20,047 bases of DNA from a virus. This document shows positions 7,827-15,580 of the stretch, in pieces. A program made the translations under genes and the position numbers. The stretch covers positions 1 to 20,047 of the IMG/VR virus record IMGVR_UViG_3300043449_001569, one strand, 5' to 3'. Positions within the stretch are counted from its first letter, which is position 1. Every line of letters begins with the position of its first letter. The notes under the pieces are model-generated. The model saw nothing but the letters and a program-made list of their open reading frames with translations, was not told where the DNA came from and did no database searches.

Positions 7827-8059
7827 TGCAGCCTCGAATAGTCGCCGGCGTAGTAGCTGCCGTACATGATGTCGGGGGCGTAGACGTTGGACATCAGCGC
7901 CTCGAAGGCGGCGCGCTGCCGGGTGCTGCGCTCGTCGGTGATCTGGGCGTAACAGGCGCCGGTATGCGCCTCCCAGCCCACCTCGACGCCCGCGCGCATG
8001 GCGGTGCGCAGCAAGTCGGGGGCGGGAAGAACAGGCGCCTTCATGGCCTCAGCGTACAT
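7823..8059 (-). CDS. Hypothetical phage protein (78 aa)
   Basis: The ATG at 8059 follows the preceding gene's stop in a TGATG junction. A TTG one codon upstream is possible, but ATG is preferred. The protein begins MYAEAMKAPVLPAPDLLRTAMRAG and ends in a Tyr-rich tail (MYGSYYAGDYSRLQ). The middle, ITDERSTRQRAAFEALMSN, looks helical. No signal peptide, membrane segment or known motif is seen. Overlapping start and stop codons on both sides argue for a genuine member of the operon. Confidence 0.65.
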   Translation of the reverse strand: MYAEAMKAPVLPAPDLLRTAMRAGVEVGWEAHTGACYAQITDERSTRQRAAFEALMSNVYAPDIMYGSYYAGDYSRLQ

Positions 8060-8253
8060 CAATCGACCTCCGGGAAACAGTACCAGAGGTCGTGCTTGGT
8101 AAGGTAGCCCTCGACGTCGAAGGCACTGCGGGGCTGCGTCAAGGCCATCAGCAGCAGCATCAGATACGGCAGGTCGCTGGCCAAGGCCGCCTTGGGCGCG
8201 AACCTGTGGACCGTGTCGCCGATGTGAAAGTGCAGGTCGCTAACGGCTCTCAT
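8059..8253 (-). CDS. Hypothetical phage protein (64 aa)
   Basis: Starts with ATG at 8253 inside the last codons of terS (14-bp overlap) and ends in a TGATG junction with the next gene. The sequence MRAVSDLHFHIGDTVHRFAPKAAL is followed by a short hydrophobic stretch, LPYLMLLLMAL (residues 29-39), then an acidic/aromatic C-terminus. The hydrophobic stretch is short for a membrane helix and may be a buried helix. No family is recognised. Its place directly after terS suggests a packaging-related or accessory role, which is inference. Confidence 0.6.
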   Translation of the reverse strand: MRAVSDLHFHIGDTVHRFAPKAALASDLPYLMLLLMALTQPRSAFDVEGYLTKHDLWYCFPEVD

Positions 8254-8857
8254 CTTCGGTCTTTCCCTTCGTTGCCTGCAGCAGGATGTTTTTTAACTGA
8301 TCTCTCTGCTCGGGTGCCAGCGCCAGCACGTCGATCCTCGTCGCCTGCGTCTCGATGGGCCCGCCGTCCTTGCCGGTGATTTCGGTGATCACCTTCTCGC
8401 CGTAGACCTTGGGCAACACCTTCGACAGCAGCCACTTGCGCGTGTCAATGCGCAGCCGCGAGCGCGCGACAGCCTCCATGTCGAGGACCATCTTACCCTC
8501 CTCGTTCATCACGTAGTCGTCGCGCTTGTGGTCCGCGATGTCGCTGATTTCGTCAGCCCATCTCAAGGCAACGATGTGCTTCGCTCTCGCGTATTTCTGC
8601 CCGAAGCCTTCGTAATCGTCGATGATCCAAGCGTAGATCGTCGACTCGCTTATCTTCAGTTGCGCTGCAATCTTAGGTGACGATATCCCGTCGGCCATCA
8701 TCTGCAGGATCTGGTCCGCGATTTCGGGCGTGTACGTGCCCGTCCGCCGAAACCCTTGATTACGAGGGCGCCCCACACGCCGAGCCACACCGGCCACGCC
8801 ATTGGCAGGCTCAGGATCAGCACCAGCGTCGGCAGGGCGAGCATCACGGCGAGCCAT
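8240..8857 (-). CDS. terS: Terminase small subunit, Sf6 gp1-like family
   Basis: The small subunit recognises viral DNA and loads the TerL motor. The 205-residue ORF has a Gly/Arg/Pro-rich N-terminus and then a helix-turn-helix at about 42-75 (TYTPEIADQILQMMADGISSPKIAAQLKISESTIYAWI). Next comes the family's oligomerisation segment with RAKHIVALRWADEISDIAD and SRLRIDTRKWLLSKVLPKVYGEKV, a hallmark of Sf6-like small subunits. The start is uncertain. ATG 8857 overlaps a membrane-protein ORF by 160 bp. A GTG at 8776, giving VGRPRNQGFRRTGTYTPEIADQ, matches the usual short 'GRP…YTPE' beginning. It is followed by four small genes, then terL and the portal, the normal packaging order. Confidence 0.9.
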   Translation of the reverse strand: MARRDARPADAGADPEPANGVAGVARRVGRPRNQGFRRTGTYTPEIADQILQMMADGISSPKIAAQLKISESTIYAWIIDDYEGFGQKYARAKHIVALRWADEISDIADHKRDDYVMNEEGKMVLDMEAVARSRLRIDTRKWLLSKVLPKVYGEKVITEITGKDGGPIETQATRIDVLALAPEQRDQLKNILLQATKGKTEDESR

Positions 8858-8868: not shown

Positions 8869-9056
8869 GCCCTTGCCTTGAGCAGTTCCAGCATGGCGAC
8901 GACCGACCGGGGGACAGGCGTCGTCCCGGCCAGCCAGCGGTACACCGTGCGCCCGCTGACGCCAGACAGAACCGCCAGTTCGCTGTTCAAAATGTCCATC
9001 TCATCGAGTAGCCGGGCCAATCGCTGGTGAGATAGATCAGTTGCAAGATCGGTCAT
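8865..9056 (-). CDS. Small helix-turn-helix DNA-binding protein (63 aa)
   Basis: The product is one helix-turn-helix domain: MTDLATDLSHQRLARLLDEM, then ELAVLSGVSGRTVYRWLAGTTPVP (residues 26-49) and a closing hydrophobic helix. The 'TVYRW-x2-GTTPVP' recognition segment is shared with the rightward protein at 13746-13979, so the two are paralogues. The likely role is regulation or DNA binding. The fold is clear; targets are unknown. It lies downstream of a strong hairpin and overlaps the start of the next gene (GTGA). That places it at the head of the packaging operon, where it could control read-through or late expression. Confidence 0.8.
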   Translation of the reverse strand: MTDLATDLSHQRLARLLDEMDILNSELAVLSGVSGRTVYRWLAGTTPVPRSVVAMLELLKARA

Positions 9057-9093
9057 ATCGTCTTCTACGCCAAAACGGCAAAAAAGACCAGCG

Positions 9094-9136
9094 GGGGTGT
9101 ACTAAGCGAAGCCAAACGCGTCGCTTAGCACACCCC
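9094..9136 (-). terminator. Long hairpin with T-tract, probable leftward terminator or attenuator
   Basis: The arms 9094-9109 and 9121-9136 are complementary over 16 bp. The single mismatch on the plus strand (A·C) becomes a G·U pair in leftward RNA, so that transcript forms a continuous stem with an 11-nt loop. A run of six T (minus strand, plus positions 9080-9085) follows about 8 nt after the stem, further than ideal for intrinsic termination. It lies between the stop of the 94-aa gene and the HTH gene, so it can separate early from late leftward transcription. It could also be an operator. Confidence 0.6.
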
Positions 9137-9142
9137 TGCGGG

Positions 9143-9427
9143 CTACGCGGTGAGGCGCTGGTTGGCGCGGGCGGCGACCGTGATGCGGTTCGCGGTCGAG
9201 GTCTTGGTCGCCTCGGCAATCTGGGCCTCAGTCAGCCAGCCCTTCACCATCGCGGTGTCGAGGCGGGACATCTCGTAAGTCGTGACCTTGAGGGCGAACT
9301 TGTCGCCCGCGATCTCGTCAGCGCCGAGGGCGAGGATCTTCGCCTTGAGGGCATCCACGGTCTTCTGCGCGGCCTTGAGCTGGGCGGCGGCAACGGCGTA
9401 CTGGTCTACAAACTTGCTGGTCGTCAT
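9143..9427 (-). CDS. Conserved small phage protein (94 aa), helical, function unknown
   Basis: Two ATGs are possible (9433 and 9427). I chose 9427 because the AGGAG of the leader is 6 nt before it, while 9433 is part of the ribosome-binding site. The N-terminal 35 residues (QYAVAAAQLKAAQKTVDALKAKILALG) form a likely amphipathic helix or coiled coil. The rest (GDKFALKVTTYEMSRLDTAMVKGWLTEAQIAEATKTSTANRITVA) follows a pattern I recall from many small phage proteins ('EGD-x-F-ALxV … LDT … Lx-x-x-I-x-x-x-TK-T'). No activity is known to me. It has its own consensus promoter and is followed by a strong hairpin, so it may be a separately and highly expressed early gene. Confidence 0.75.
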   Translation of the reverse strand: MTTSKFVDQYAVAAAQLKAAQKTVDALKAKILALGADEIAGDKFALKVTTYEMSRLDTAMVKGWLTEAQIAEATKTSTANRITVAARANQRLTA

Positions 9428-9430
9428 TTC

Positions 9431-9479
9431 CATCTCCTATTCGATGAGCCTTTATACGGCTGACTTATCCACATGTCAA
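9431..9479 (-). promoter_or_regulatory. Consensus sigma-70 promoter and leader for the 94-aa gene
   Basis: On the minus strand TTGACA (9474-9479) is separated by exactly 17 nt from TATAAA (9451-9456). The leader CATCGAATAGGAGATG (9431-9446) follows and is shared with the rightward cassettes at 11708, 12685 and 12929. The -35 overlaps the stop codon of the upstream 68-aa gene. This is the best promoter match in the window. Confidence 0.8.
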
Positions 9480-9682
9480 ATCGTCAATCGGCTTTTCTTT
9501 CGTGGGGGGTGGCGCACGATCACGCCGTCGAACGCAACGTGCCTGTAGGTTCGCCGCCACTTGATCGCGGCAACGACATGCTTCCACGTACCGTGGGCGG
9601 CGGCGATTTCCCTGTACGGTCGCGCGTCAGCCAGAATTGAGCGCACTTCGTCAGGCGTGAAAACGCGGCGCTTGACGCTCAT
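9476..9682 (-). CDS. Small HTH-module protein (68 aa)
   Basis: The ATG at 9682 overlaps the stop of the preceding gene (ATGA). The sequence MSVKRRVFTPDEVRSILADARPYREIAAAHGTWKHVVAAIKWRRTYRHVAFDG is a single helix-turn-helix of the kind often attached to phage HNH endonucleases ('xPEEVRxIxxx…xREIAxxxGVSxxxVxxIKxxxxxxHV'). No nuclease motif accompanies it. It is closely similar to residues 31-80 of its upstream neighbour (PPEVVQAVLADARPYGEIAAACN…VAAIKARRLYAHVPFAG), so the pair probably arose by duplication. The basic tail (RHPPRKKSRLTI) supports DNA binding. Regulator or homing-endonuclease remnant are both possible. Confidence 0.7.
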   Translation of the reverse strand: MSVKRRVFTPDEVRSILADARPYREIAAAHGTWKHVVAAIKWRRTYRHVAFDGVIVRHPPRKKSRLTI

Positions 9683-10176
9683 GCGGCCCCCAGATCGGCA
9701 CGCTCGCGCGCATGCCGGGCATCCAGATCGTCACGCTCGCGCGCATGCCGGGCGTCCAGCGCCCGCCGCGCCGCGCTCGGAGACGTCAGGCCGTGTGTGA
9801 TGTCGACACCTATGCGGCCTTGTCTGATCTGCCGCGCCCTTGAGAGGCTCACGCCGTGGCGCTGGGCGGCCTCGCGCGTCGCGGCCGGGTCGAGGTACAC
9901 CGCCCGCACCGTCTCCGCGCTGAGCGCGCTGCGCGAGCCGCGAGGCACCTCCCCAGCAAACGGCACGTGCGCGTACAGACGCCGCGCCTTGATCGCGGCG
10001 ACCGTCTGATACCCTACATTGCACGCCGCCGCGATCTCCCCATACGGTCGCGCGTCGGCCAATACCGCCTGCACGACTTCCGGGGGCATCTTGCGCCGCC
10101 GCCAATCCGCAATCTCGGCGGCCTCAAGAAAATCTCGCGCATTCGGGGCGCGTGACACGATCCATGGATGCAGCAC
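9679..10176 (-). CDS. Double HTH-module protein (165 aa) with tandem 11-residue C-terminal repeat
   Basis: I chose the GTG at 10176 because GGAGGG lies 7-8 nt upstream. The longer open frame (to 10422) runs through the AT-rich control region and is unlikely to be coding. ATG 10089 is an alternative. Two helix-turn-helix modules are visible: residues 31-72 (PPEVVQAVLADARPYGEIAAACNVGYQTVAAIKARRLYAHV) and about 92-130 (LSAETVRAVYLDPAATREAAQRHGVSLSRARQIRQGR). The C-terminus carries two copies of LDARHARERxD encoded by a 33-bp repeat. As the first leftward gene beside CCAGACTG operators it is a good candidate autoregulator. This is inferred from position and fold. Confidence 0.7.
   Translation of the reverse strand: MLHPWIVSRAPNARDFLEAAEIADWRRRKMPPEVVQAVLADARPYGEIAAACNVGYQTVAAIKARRLYAHVPFAGEVPRGSRSALSAETVRAVYLDPAATREAAQRHGVSLSRARQIRQGRIGVDITHGLTSPSAARRALDARHARERDDLDARHARERADLGAA
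9693..9758. repeat. 33-bp tandem repeat, two copies, inside the double-HTH gene
   Basis: Units 9693-9725 and 9726-9758 match at 31 of 33 positions. Being a multiple of three, they keep the frame and encode two 11-residue blocks, LDARHARERDD and LDARHARERAD. These probably extend a charged helix at the C-terminus of the 165-aa protein. Copy number may vary between relatives. Confidence 0.85.
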
Positions 10177-11199: not shown

Positions 11200-11487
11200 A
11201 TGGCATTCATCAACCGCACCACTTTCAAAATCGACCGCATCGAGCACATCGTCGGCAAGACGGGCTACTGCATCGTCTACGCCTGCGGCACGGTCGAAGT
11301 GACCTACGGGGGCCGCACGGAGCGCGTGCGCGCCACCCGCTGGCAGGACAACGACATCCTCTGCGGAGACGCCCTGCTGCACCGTTTTCAGCCCGGCGCG
11401 GAGCCCTCAAAGCTGGTGATCACCAGCACATCCGACGGCCGCGAGTTCACCAACTGCAGCGGGCGCAACCTCGAATGGAGCATCTGA
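11200..11487 (+). CDS. Hypothetical phage protein (95 aa)
   Basis: Preceded by its own promoter and a GGAGATAG ribosome-binding site. The protein MAFINRTTFKIDRIEHIVGKTGYCIVYACGTVEVTYGGRTERVRATRWQDNDILCGDALLHRF… is predicted mostly β, with four scattered cysteines (GYCIVYAC, ILCGD, TNCSG). The spacing is not a standard zinc motif. The stop overlaps the next ATG by one base (TGATG). No family recognised. Confidence 0.7.
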   Translation: MAFINRTTFKIDRIEHIVGKTGYCIVYACGTVEVTYGGRTERVRATRWQDNDILCGDALLHRFQPGAEPSKLVITSTSDGREFTNCSGRNLEWSI

Positions 11488-11717
11488 TGCACACGATCCT
11501 CTGGAGCCGAGGCGGCAGCCACGACGGTGTGGACTGGGAAGACGAGCAGACGGTCACGTTCGGAGCCGACATGCAGGTCATCGCGCTCCACCCCGGCGCC
11601 GGCAATCACGGCGTGTTCAGCGACCTCGCTGACCGCATCCTGCTGGACGAGGCGCAGGACTGGCTCGACAACGAGGGCCACGACGAGGCCGCGAAAATAC
11701 TGCAGCAGGCCGCTTGA
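11487..11717 (+). CDS. Hypothetical acidic phage protein (76 aa)
   Basis: I chose the ATG at 11487 (TGATG junction with the preceding gene) over an in-frame ATG at 11475 that overlaps it further. The sequence MHTILWSRGGSHDGVDWEDEQTVTFGADMQVIALHPGAGNHGVFSDLADRILLDEAQDWLDNEGHDEAAKILQQAA is strongly acidic, with a C-terminal helix. Small acidic phage proteins sometimes mimic DNA, but this is only a composition remark. Its last codons lie in the 57-bp repeat cassette. Confidence 0.65.
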   Translation: MHTILWSRGGSHDGVDWEDEQTVTFGADMQVIALHPGAGNHGVFSDLADRILLDEAQDWLDNEGHDEAAKILQQAA

Positions 11718-14715: not shown

Positions 14716-14951
14716 AGGACGCAATCACCATCCTCCTCATCGCTGCGGGATTTCTGCTGCTCACCCACGGCCTCGCAAAGGCCGACTGGCAGGTGCAGGA
14801 GTGGGACGGCACGGCGTGGGCGCCGGCGACGACGCCCAAGGGCAACACCGCCGCCGTCAACGCCGAGAAGACGGCCTGCGAGCTGGACCTCGCGAGCCTC
14901 TCGACGGTTAAGCCATCAGGAACTAGACTGCGATGTTCGAAGATACGATAG
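14712..14951 (+). CDS. Small secreted or membrane-anchored phage protein (79 aa)
   Basis: Residues 1-24 (MKDAITILLIAAGFLLLTHGLAKA) have a charged start, a hydrophobic core and an A-K-A site before DWQVQEWDG, a textbook signal peptide or N-terminal anchor. The exported part contains WQVQEWDGTAWAPATTPKGNTAAVNAEKTACELDLASLSTVKPSGTRLRCSKIR. Its two cysteines could form a disulphide in the periplasm. Superinfection exclusion or envelope modification are possible roles, with nothing specific to choose between them. The stop lies 6 bp before the tRNA-like element. Confidence 0.7.
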   Translation: MKDAITILLIAAGFLLLTHGLAKADWQVQEWDGTAWAPATTPKGNTAAVNAEKTACELDLASLSTVKPSGTRLRCSKIR

Positions 14952-14957
14952 CGATAC

Positions 14958-15032
14958 GCGGAGATAGCATAATGGTAATGCGCGCGCGGACCACCCGCGA
15001 GAAGACGGTTCGATCCCGATCTCTCCGCTCCA
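14958..15032 (+). tRNA. tRNA-Gly-like element (non-canonical), overlapping the mom-family start
   Basis: Seen directly: acceptor stem GCGGAGA/TCTCCGC (7/7 pairs), TA linker, D stem GCAT/ATGC (4/4) with loop AATGGTA containing GG, T loop TTCGATC, discriminator T and encoded CCA. The T stem pairs 5/5 with one bulged A (15019). The anticodon arm is odd. The standard fold gives CGCGC/CCGCG with a C·C mismatch and loop GGACCAC (anticodon ACC, Gly), with G instead of U at position 33. A 5-bp stem with a 5-nt loop is the alternative. G1-C72, C2-G71, U73, C35 and C36 are known glycine identity elements. Decoding looks impaired, so it may be a pseudo-tRNA, a glycyl donor, or an mRNA element. Confidence 0.55.
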
Positions 15033-15580
15033 CCGACCTCTTCGTGGCTCCTTGCGAGCTGGAGGACATCAAGGCGTTCATCGAGACGCACCACTACTCG
15101 CATTCAGTCTTTGGCGTTACGGCGTCGCGCTGCTTCAAGGTTGAGTATCAAGGAGAGTTGGCAGGCGGCGCGATTTTCGGGCTGCCCGCGGGCGTTGGCG
15201 TAGCCGCGAAATACGCCGACGGCGGGAACCTGTTGGAATTGCGCCGCTTTGTCCTGCACGACGAGGCGCCGCGTAACAGCGAGAGCCGCGCCCTCAGCGT
15301 CATGTTCCGCGCGTTGCGCCGCGAAGGGTACACCCGGATCCTGAGCTACGCCGACCCGATGCACGGACACTCAGGCGTCATCTACAAGGCCACTGGCTTT
15401 GAGTATCGGGGGCGCACAGCTGCCCGCAAGCACATTATGTGGAAAGGCAAGAAGTATCCTGACCGCAACGTGCATCAGGTCAATTTCCCGTACCACCTTG
15501 AGCTTCGAGCGGCGCTCGCGTCAGGTGAAGCCACGCGGGTTTGCATCGAGCCCAAGCACATCTACGTCAAGAAGCTGTAG
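14972..15580 (+). CDS. mom: Mom-family DNA adenine hypermodification protein (GNAT-like)
   Basis: Mom of phage Mu adds a carbamoylmethyl (glycinamide) group to adenine N6, protecting DNA from restriction. The match is by pattern: IKAFIETHHYSHSVFG, GGAIFGLPAG, LLELRRFVLHDEAPRNSESRALSVMFRALRREGYTRILSYADPMHGHSGVIYKATGFEYRGRTA, the conserved 'ELxR…D…P.N.ESR…SYADpxxGHxGxIYxAxxFxYxG' core. ATG 14972 (202 aa) has GGAGA 7 nt upstream. ATG 14978 and GTG 15044 are alternatives; the latter begins just before the conserved domain and after the tRNA-like element, but lacks a ribosome-binding site. With ATG 14972 the first 20 residues are encoded by the tRNA-like sequence. The 3' end overlaps the convergent helicase gene by 14 bp. 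The exact modification here is unknown. Confidence 0.82.
   Translation: MVMRARTTREKTVRSRSLRSTDLFVAPCELEDIKAFIETHHYSHSVFGVTASRCFKVEYQGELAGGAIFGLPAGVGVAAKYADGGNLLELRRFVLHDEAPRNSESRALSVMFRALRREGYTRILSYADPMHGHSGVIYKATGFEYRGRTAARKHIMWKGKKYPDRNVHQVNFPYHLELRAALASGEATRVCIEPKHIYVKKL

Follow-up and report, generated by a model that had tools for sequence, protein, structure and literature searches.

A tRNA-Gly-like element inside the 5' end of a mom gene

The DNA analyzed here, which we call the window, was the whole 20,047-nucleotide stretch of IMG/VR virus record IMGVR_UViG_3300043449_001569 (positions 1 to 20,047). On its plus strand, a 75-nt element resembling a tRNA-Gly overlaps the start of a gene of the Mom family. 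The features of this locus are as follows:

14924..14952, + strand: weak promoter-like TAGACT-17-GATAGC (p = 0.04), from which RNA would begin near nucleotide 1 of the tRNA
14958..15032, + strand: tRNA-Gly-like element, 75 nt, with encoded CCA (Rfam RF00005, ARAGORN, family model CM R1, covariation)
14958..14964, + strand: 5' strand of the acceptor stem, GCGGAGA, pairing with 15022-15028 (TCTCCGC) at 7/7 positions (sequence)
14960..14964, + strand: Shine-Dalgarno GGAGA within the acceptor stem, 7 nt upstream of the D-loop ATG; same spacing in relatives with GGAG
14967..14981, + strand: D arm GCAT-AATGGTA-ATGC, with D stem GCAT/ATGC (Rfam match, family alignment, covariation)
14972..14974, + strand: most likely start codon of mom, the D-loop ATG (in frame, Shine-Dalgarno at 7 nt)
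14972..15580, + strand: mom gene, 202 aa (PF25680 at 97.2 bits, PHROG_1384, AF2 pLDDT 87, top Foldseek match Mu Mom 8bv8)
14985..14999, + strand: anticodon arm CGCGG[ACCAC]CCGCG, loop not of 7 nt (RNA fold prediction; NCC kept in 18/18 relatives)
15004..15021, + strand: T arm GACGG-TTCGATC-CCG[A]TC, bulged A at 15019 (Rfam, fold, alignment; one extra 3'-strand nucleotide in 18/18)
15029..15032, + strand: discriminator U73 and encoded CCA (TCCA; sequence; U73 in 18/18, CCA in 17/18)

The assignment of the gene to the Mom family, made in a preliminary description of this locus, was well supported. The predicted protein scored far above the curated cut-off of PF25680 (27.1 bits) and gave 153 bits with PHROG_1384, and a Foldseek search with its predicted structure returned Mu Mom as the best match (E-value 8e-12, probability 1.0), the closest folds after Mu Mom itself being those of acetyl-CoA GNATs. 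The Mu structure, PDB 8bv8 (release December 2023), is that of the inactive S124A mutant; at the position corresponding to Mu Ser124, 41/41 aligned Moms had S or T. The CoA motif A loop of GNATs (Q/R-x-x-G-x-G/A) was absent from its usual position in all 41 Moms examined, including that of Mu, and a P[RK]N[ST]ES-like stretch stood in its place in the aligned Moms. Residues 1-19 of the window protein, which lie inside the part encoded by the tRNA-like, were predicted by AF2 to be disordered, with the GNAT fold from there on. An ATG at 14933 is also in frame with mom but has no Shine-Dalgarno, leaving 14972 as the best start; in one relative (L025), in-frame stops directly before the tRNA-like make a start further upstream impossible.

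The tRNA-like had been placed correctly at 14958-15032, with its encoded CCA at 15029-15032. Positions 14958-15028 matched the Rfam tRNA model (RF00005) with 28.6 bits and an E-value of 0.025, slightly missing the gathering score of 29, and ARAGORN found a match at the same place (14957-15028), its call of tRNA-Val(gac) being one we rejected as an artefact of the odd anticodon arm. Our home-made family covariance model, CM R1, gave the element about 75 bits (75.2), a score to be read with the window as a training member and with the E-values of the model as rough. Since the folding energy of single sequences was not significant, the case for a tRNA-like rests on comparison.

The acceptor, D, anticodon, and T stems of the window element all pair as in a cloverleaf (Rfam, covariation, CM R1), and it has the complete tRNA-Gly identity set of G1-C72, C2-G71, G3-C70, U73, C35, and C36, as do all 18 members of the family described below, in keeping with the tRNA-Gly ancestry proposed earlier. 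Its glycine anticodon ACC (14990-14992) sits in a predicted 5-nt loop. A C·C mismatch reported for the anticodon stem gave way to a predicted perfect 5-bp stem, while the other features thought to spoil decoding were recovered: the loop has 5 nt, or 7 nt without U33, where a decoding-competent form has 7 nt with U33, and the T stem is not a regular 5-bp stem, having the bulged A as one extra nucleotide in its 3' strand. The preliminary description had the element touching mom; the two are indeed linked, but the element lies inside the gene and carries its Shine-Dalgarno and start codon, which had been missed.

A family of mom-linked tRNA-likes

A search for tRNA-like elements beside other phage mom genes, by IMG/VR pattern scans and protein similarity, recovered 18 distinct elements at mom loci in approximately 17 phage lineages, plus the deviating forms at L011 and G020 described below. 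All carriers are metagenomic contigs. Seventeen of the 18 overlap the start of a Mom gene, and the remaining one, at L135, overlaps a gene for a 63-residue Cys-rich protein that in turn overlaps mom. The linked Mom proteins differ widely from one another. In three close relatives of the window (Mom 94-95% identical) all 75 nt were unchanged while the flanks had diverged, and L004, with a Mom only 36% identical to that of the window, has its own element of the same kind with compensatory changes. Because of these comparisons and the covariation across the 18 members, the window element is not a chance resemblance.

Conservation of the pairing in related phages had been set beforehand as a refutation test, and it held in the 18 distinct RNAs. 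In their acceptor, D, and T stems 98.6% of the alignment cells were paired, a proportion reached in 0/500 shuffles, with double changes in 8/16 pairs and 23 double-sided changes overall. The anticodon stems were almost all different, yet paired, and enclosed loops of mostly 6 nt. An NCC anticodon was found in 18/18 elements (ACC, UCC, or CCC, never GCC), U73 in 18/18, and the encoded CCA in all except L050; every element had one extra T-arm nucleotide, mostly an A between 63 and 64. Some of these features were built into the scans, whose patterns imposed GGAG, U8, RTGG, and GTTCRA, and in some scans the extra T-arm nucleotide as well. No pattern imposed NCC, the open reading frame, or the identity of its product as Mom; CCA was free in several scans, and acceptor positions 1, 2, and 71-73 were free in one. 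Moreover, protein similarity led to L001-L004 and L039, and Rfam to L143b, so these are free of pattern bias. Judged from sequence, the 18 elements look chargeable yet non-decoding, the latter because of the extra T-arm nucleotide in all of them and the 6-nt anticodon loops in most.

We considered whether the RNA is kept merely as the coding sequence of the Mom N-terminus and rejected this: the window reads through the tRNA in another frame than its relatives, the resulting peptide is unconserved and predicted to be disordered, and the L135 element encodes a different small protein. Frame-fitting was likewise rejected as the cause of the extra T-arm nucleotide, which is kept in the window in another frame and also in L011, where the element lies at the 3' end of mom.

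The 5' copies have both Shine-Dalgarno and start codon inside the fold, with one exception. L143 carries two tRNA-mom units in tandem, the stop codon of the first mom being formed by nucleotides 8-10 of the second tRNA; one of these copies, L143b, lacks GGAG and retains the start codon alone inside the fold, and the second mom of this pair is the closest to that of the window. Sigma70-like promoters better than that of the window (p 0.0003-0.004 each versus 0.04) were found in six lineages (L058, L052, L094, L060, L025, and L118), where they would start RNA at tRNA nucleotide 1 or within 1-2 nt of it; little or no RNase P processing would therefore be needed for the 5' end.

Among ten fused proteins examined closely, nine scored above the Pfam Mom cut-off, the exception (L094) being weak, and PHROG_1384 matched 10/10; for later lineages, Mom matches were added by whole-record searches. 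The L094 protein (8954-9727) scored 38 bits with Druantia DruA versus 17.8 bits with Mom, and this better match suggests that DruA/DUF4338 and Mom may be related. In a tree of Mom proteins the fused and unfused members were intermixed, with 9 changes, at least 3 of them forced, although deep support was low and the number of gains is uncertain.

Several neighbouring features are recorded here as observations. The L135 tRNA-like opens its Cys-rich frame (11368-11556) over the mom start in the com-mom layout of Mu, the product being a possible Com analogue. At L004 (4736-4918), a 60-residue Cys-rich frame (HRCPNCGQWWEHEDFKCPHYG), possibly a Com-like zinc protein, ends just upstream of the tRNA-mom gene. 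In the L052 protein (7866-8777, minus strand), the tRNA-coded peptide is separated from the Mom domain by a C2H2 zinc-finger-like stretch. Several carrier phages also possess ordinary tRNA arrays, and G003 (IMGVR_UViG_3300035698_035346) has two distant Moms (26416-26874 and 39853-40440) with a tRNA-like at one only.

Ordinary tRNA-Gly genes and Moms without the element

In a length-neutral scan, which accepted T arms whether or not the extra nucleotide was present, fusion to a Mom-like gene was seen in 10/10 lineages having that nucleotide, versus 0/30 normal tRNA-Gly (p 1e-9). The normal phage set, retrieved with the same pattern, comprised 30 distinct sequences at 52 loci, with no Mom in the stored DNA surrounding them. 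A 7-nt loop with U33 was present in 25/30 of the normal tRNA-Gly; the loops of the fused ones are mostly of 6 nt.

One scan of 84,980 species genomes, representing host genomes, gave a single match (L111), by chance. About 250 INPHARED records carry Mom, and no phage with the element was found among the hits examined in INPHARED isolates: in family-model searches of entire Mom phages, the hits that were inspected closely looked like ordinary or non-fused tRNAs, and a reading of 16 INPHARED mom loci and that of Mu found a tRNA-like in none. As most phage Moms are without it, the tRNA-like is not essential for Mom. Klebsiella phage RaK2 (NC_019526.1) has at 176941-177016 a tRNA-Gly(UCC) whose T-loop apparently has 8 nt, absent from the annotation of the record, and an unfused mom 41 kb from it, making this tRNA a possible stand-alone counterpart. 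In Synechococcus phage S-SSM7 (L017) an unfused mom (1104-1453) directly follows a four-tRNA array (Ile, Thr, Arg, and Leu).

Copies outside the start-site position

Unfused Mom loci were also searched with the family covariance model. In L011 this located a version without a D arm, placed at the 3' end of mom, in which acceptor pairs 4, 6, and 7 have changed while G1-C72, C2-G71, G3-C70, U73, CCA, ACC, and the bulged A are kept. In G020 (the L046 phage), an odd tRNA-Gly(UCC) without the bulge precedes a second mom (110.7 bits) by 7 nt. The ribosome site is inside the fold at the gene 5' end in the window and most 5' copies, and in neither the 3' copy of L011 nor the separate copy of G020. Linkage to mom without a start-codon role of the usual kind is seen in L011, G020, L143b, which lacks GGAG, and L135, with its small Cys-rich gene. 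Because of the L011 and G020 copies and the intermixing of fused and unfused Moms on the tree, we favour, on sequence grounds, an RNA working with Mom over a pure ribosome-site operator.

Possible functions of the element

In our proposal, to which we give a probability of roughly 0.62, a tRNA-Gly unfit for decoding is dedicated to supplying Mom with glycine, its gene overlapping that of the enzyme it serves. It also seems fairly probable that Moms in general are aminoacyl-tRNA-dependent DNA modifiers that transfer glycine from Gly-tRNA to adenine, that many phages carry a translation-unfit tRNA-Gly in or beside mom, and that such a locus yields either tRNA or mRNA. Under this proposal the 5' end of the mom transcript, which in some phages would begin at tRNA nucleotide 1 as judged from promoter placement in the six lineages, folds into the tRNA demonstrated by covariation, and a cut after the encoded CCA would release it. 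Bacterial GlyRS recognises U73, the first acceptor pairs, and C35/C36, and the host enzyme would charge the RNA through U73, its first three acceptor pairs, and C35/C36. In the T stem, EF-Tu contacts the region of pairs 49-51/63-65; with its additional T-arm nucleotide on the EF-Tu-binding face and its wrong-sized anticodon loop, the RNA would be barred from translation. Mom, as a GNAT without the usual CoA loop, would move the glycine onto adenine N6. The known product of Mom is glycinamide (N6-carbamoylmethyl) adenine, which is glycine-derived in form. N6-glycyl adenine is an isomer of this product, and an intramolecular shift through a five-membered ring, in which the glycyl amine attacks C6, would convert one to the other; the chemistry suggested in the preliminary description, glycine first and glycinamide second, is thus plausible. 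Because the Shine-Dalgarno and start codon are inside the tRNA, each transcript would be either processed as tRNA or translated as Mom, perhaps also limiting the amount of Mom. Moms without their own tRNA, Mu Mom included, would draw on host Gly-tRNA.

Several points count against the donor proposal: a translational switch would equally have its Shine-Dalgarno and start codon within the tRNA, an endonuclease cut of the mRNA is needed for the 3' end, most phage Moms lack the element, and L050 lacks the encoded CCA. In addition, the Mom fold is nearest to acetyl-CoA GNATs after Mu Mom, and a review assumes an acyl-CoA donor for Mom such as glycyl-CoA (PMC7824862). In the open-licence PMC literature (without preprints) we found no paper demonstrating the donor of Mom.

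Since the tRNA carries the ribosome site and start codon of mom, regulation, either as its sole function or as a second one, is a serious rival explanation. The element could be a tRNA mimic acting in cis that hides the mom Shine-Dalgarno and start, bound by Mom, GlyRS, or a tRNA enzyme and never free or charged, comparable to the E. coli thrS operator; in an autoregulatory form, Mom would still use Gly-tRNA and the mom mRNA would mimic that substrate. The position of the ribosome site in the 5' copies (start codon only in L143b) would suit such an operator, the fold is stable enough for blocking initiation, and mom of Mu is itself tightly controlled, Com opening structured mRNA at the start of mom (PMC6483171). 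However, the copies at the 3' end of mom in L011 and 7 nt upstream in G020 cannot work in this way, the start codon within the L135 tRNA belongs to another small gene, L143b has no GGAG, and the combination of CCA, U73, NCC, and an extra nucleotide in the T arm is not something an operator would need; we therefore consider the operator unlikely.

A role in mRNA stability or processing, with the tRNA-like as a cap that protects the end of the mom transcript or guides RNase P, Z, or E and with glycine identity as mere ancestry, would fit the position of the element at the transcript start in six lineages, and tRNA nucleases readily act on tRNA elbows and acceptor stems. It would leave unexplained why NCC and CCA persisted through complete divergence of the anticodon stems, and the exclusive linkage to Mom genes of the tRNA-shaped hits with the extra nucleotide, making it distinctly improbable. 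We regard as more improbable still that the element has no tie to Mom catalysis, being either a tRNA-Gly remnant caught by mom cassettes recombining at tRNA genes or a bait for anticodon nucleases: phages often carry tRNAs and recombine there, and several carriers have ordinary arrays, but the strong covariation, invariant glycine elements, and shared extra nucleotide exclude decay of a relic, and a decoy would not be linked to mom every time.

Comparison with known systems

If the donor proposal is correct, it would identify the donor used in Mu momification, a modification of DNA that has long lacked an explanation, extend tRNA-dependent chemistry to DNA, and provide a case of a tRNA gene that also contributes the ribosome site and start codon for the enzyme it supplies; it would also suggest that every Mom phage, Mu included, taps host charged tRNA-Gly. 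Our search of the open-licence PMC literature, which here covers no preprints and few subscription journals, turned up no tRNA-dependent DNA modification; a Mom mechanism may already exist in print or as a preprint.

Among the closest known systems is Mu Mom (methylcarbamoylase, 8bv8), which belongs with the window protein to PF25680 / PHROG_1384 and shares the S/T at the Ser124 position. Whereas the window has a tRNA-Gly-like over the gene start, mom of Mu has no tRNA-like, its start being controlled by the overlapping com gene (PMC6483171), an arrangement that the small gene overlapping mom in L135 resembles. Glycine is also added in the phage cytosine modification of CmoX/CmoY (PMC12783734), which is similar as a DNA hypermodification but different in using carboxy-SAM and the ATP-dependent ligation of free glycine, with no tRNA. 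For the use of Gly-tRNA by a GNAT-fold transferase outside translation there is a precedent in FemXAB (PMC4307249).

The operator of E. coli thrS is a mimic of tRNA-Thr in mRNA, with a tRNA-like fold over the ribosome site and start region. It does not form a complete cloverleaf with a CCA end and occurs solely at its own gene, whereas the mom-linked element is a whole tRNA and is found also at the gene's 3' end or apart from it. Staphylococci have dedicated non-proteinogenic tRNA-Gly isoacceptors that bind EF-Tu weakly and supply the glycine bridges of the cell wall. The likeness to these Fem tRNAs would lie in a Gly-tRNA donor to a GNAT fold, and the window element too is predicted to bind EF-Tu poorly and not to decode; the staphylococcal tRNAs, however, are separate bacterial genes with normal arms that serve peptidoglycan, while the window element is embedded in a DNA-modification gene of a phage, with one additional nucleotide in its T arm and an abnormal anticodon loop.
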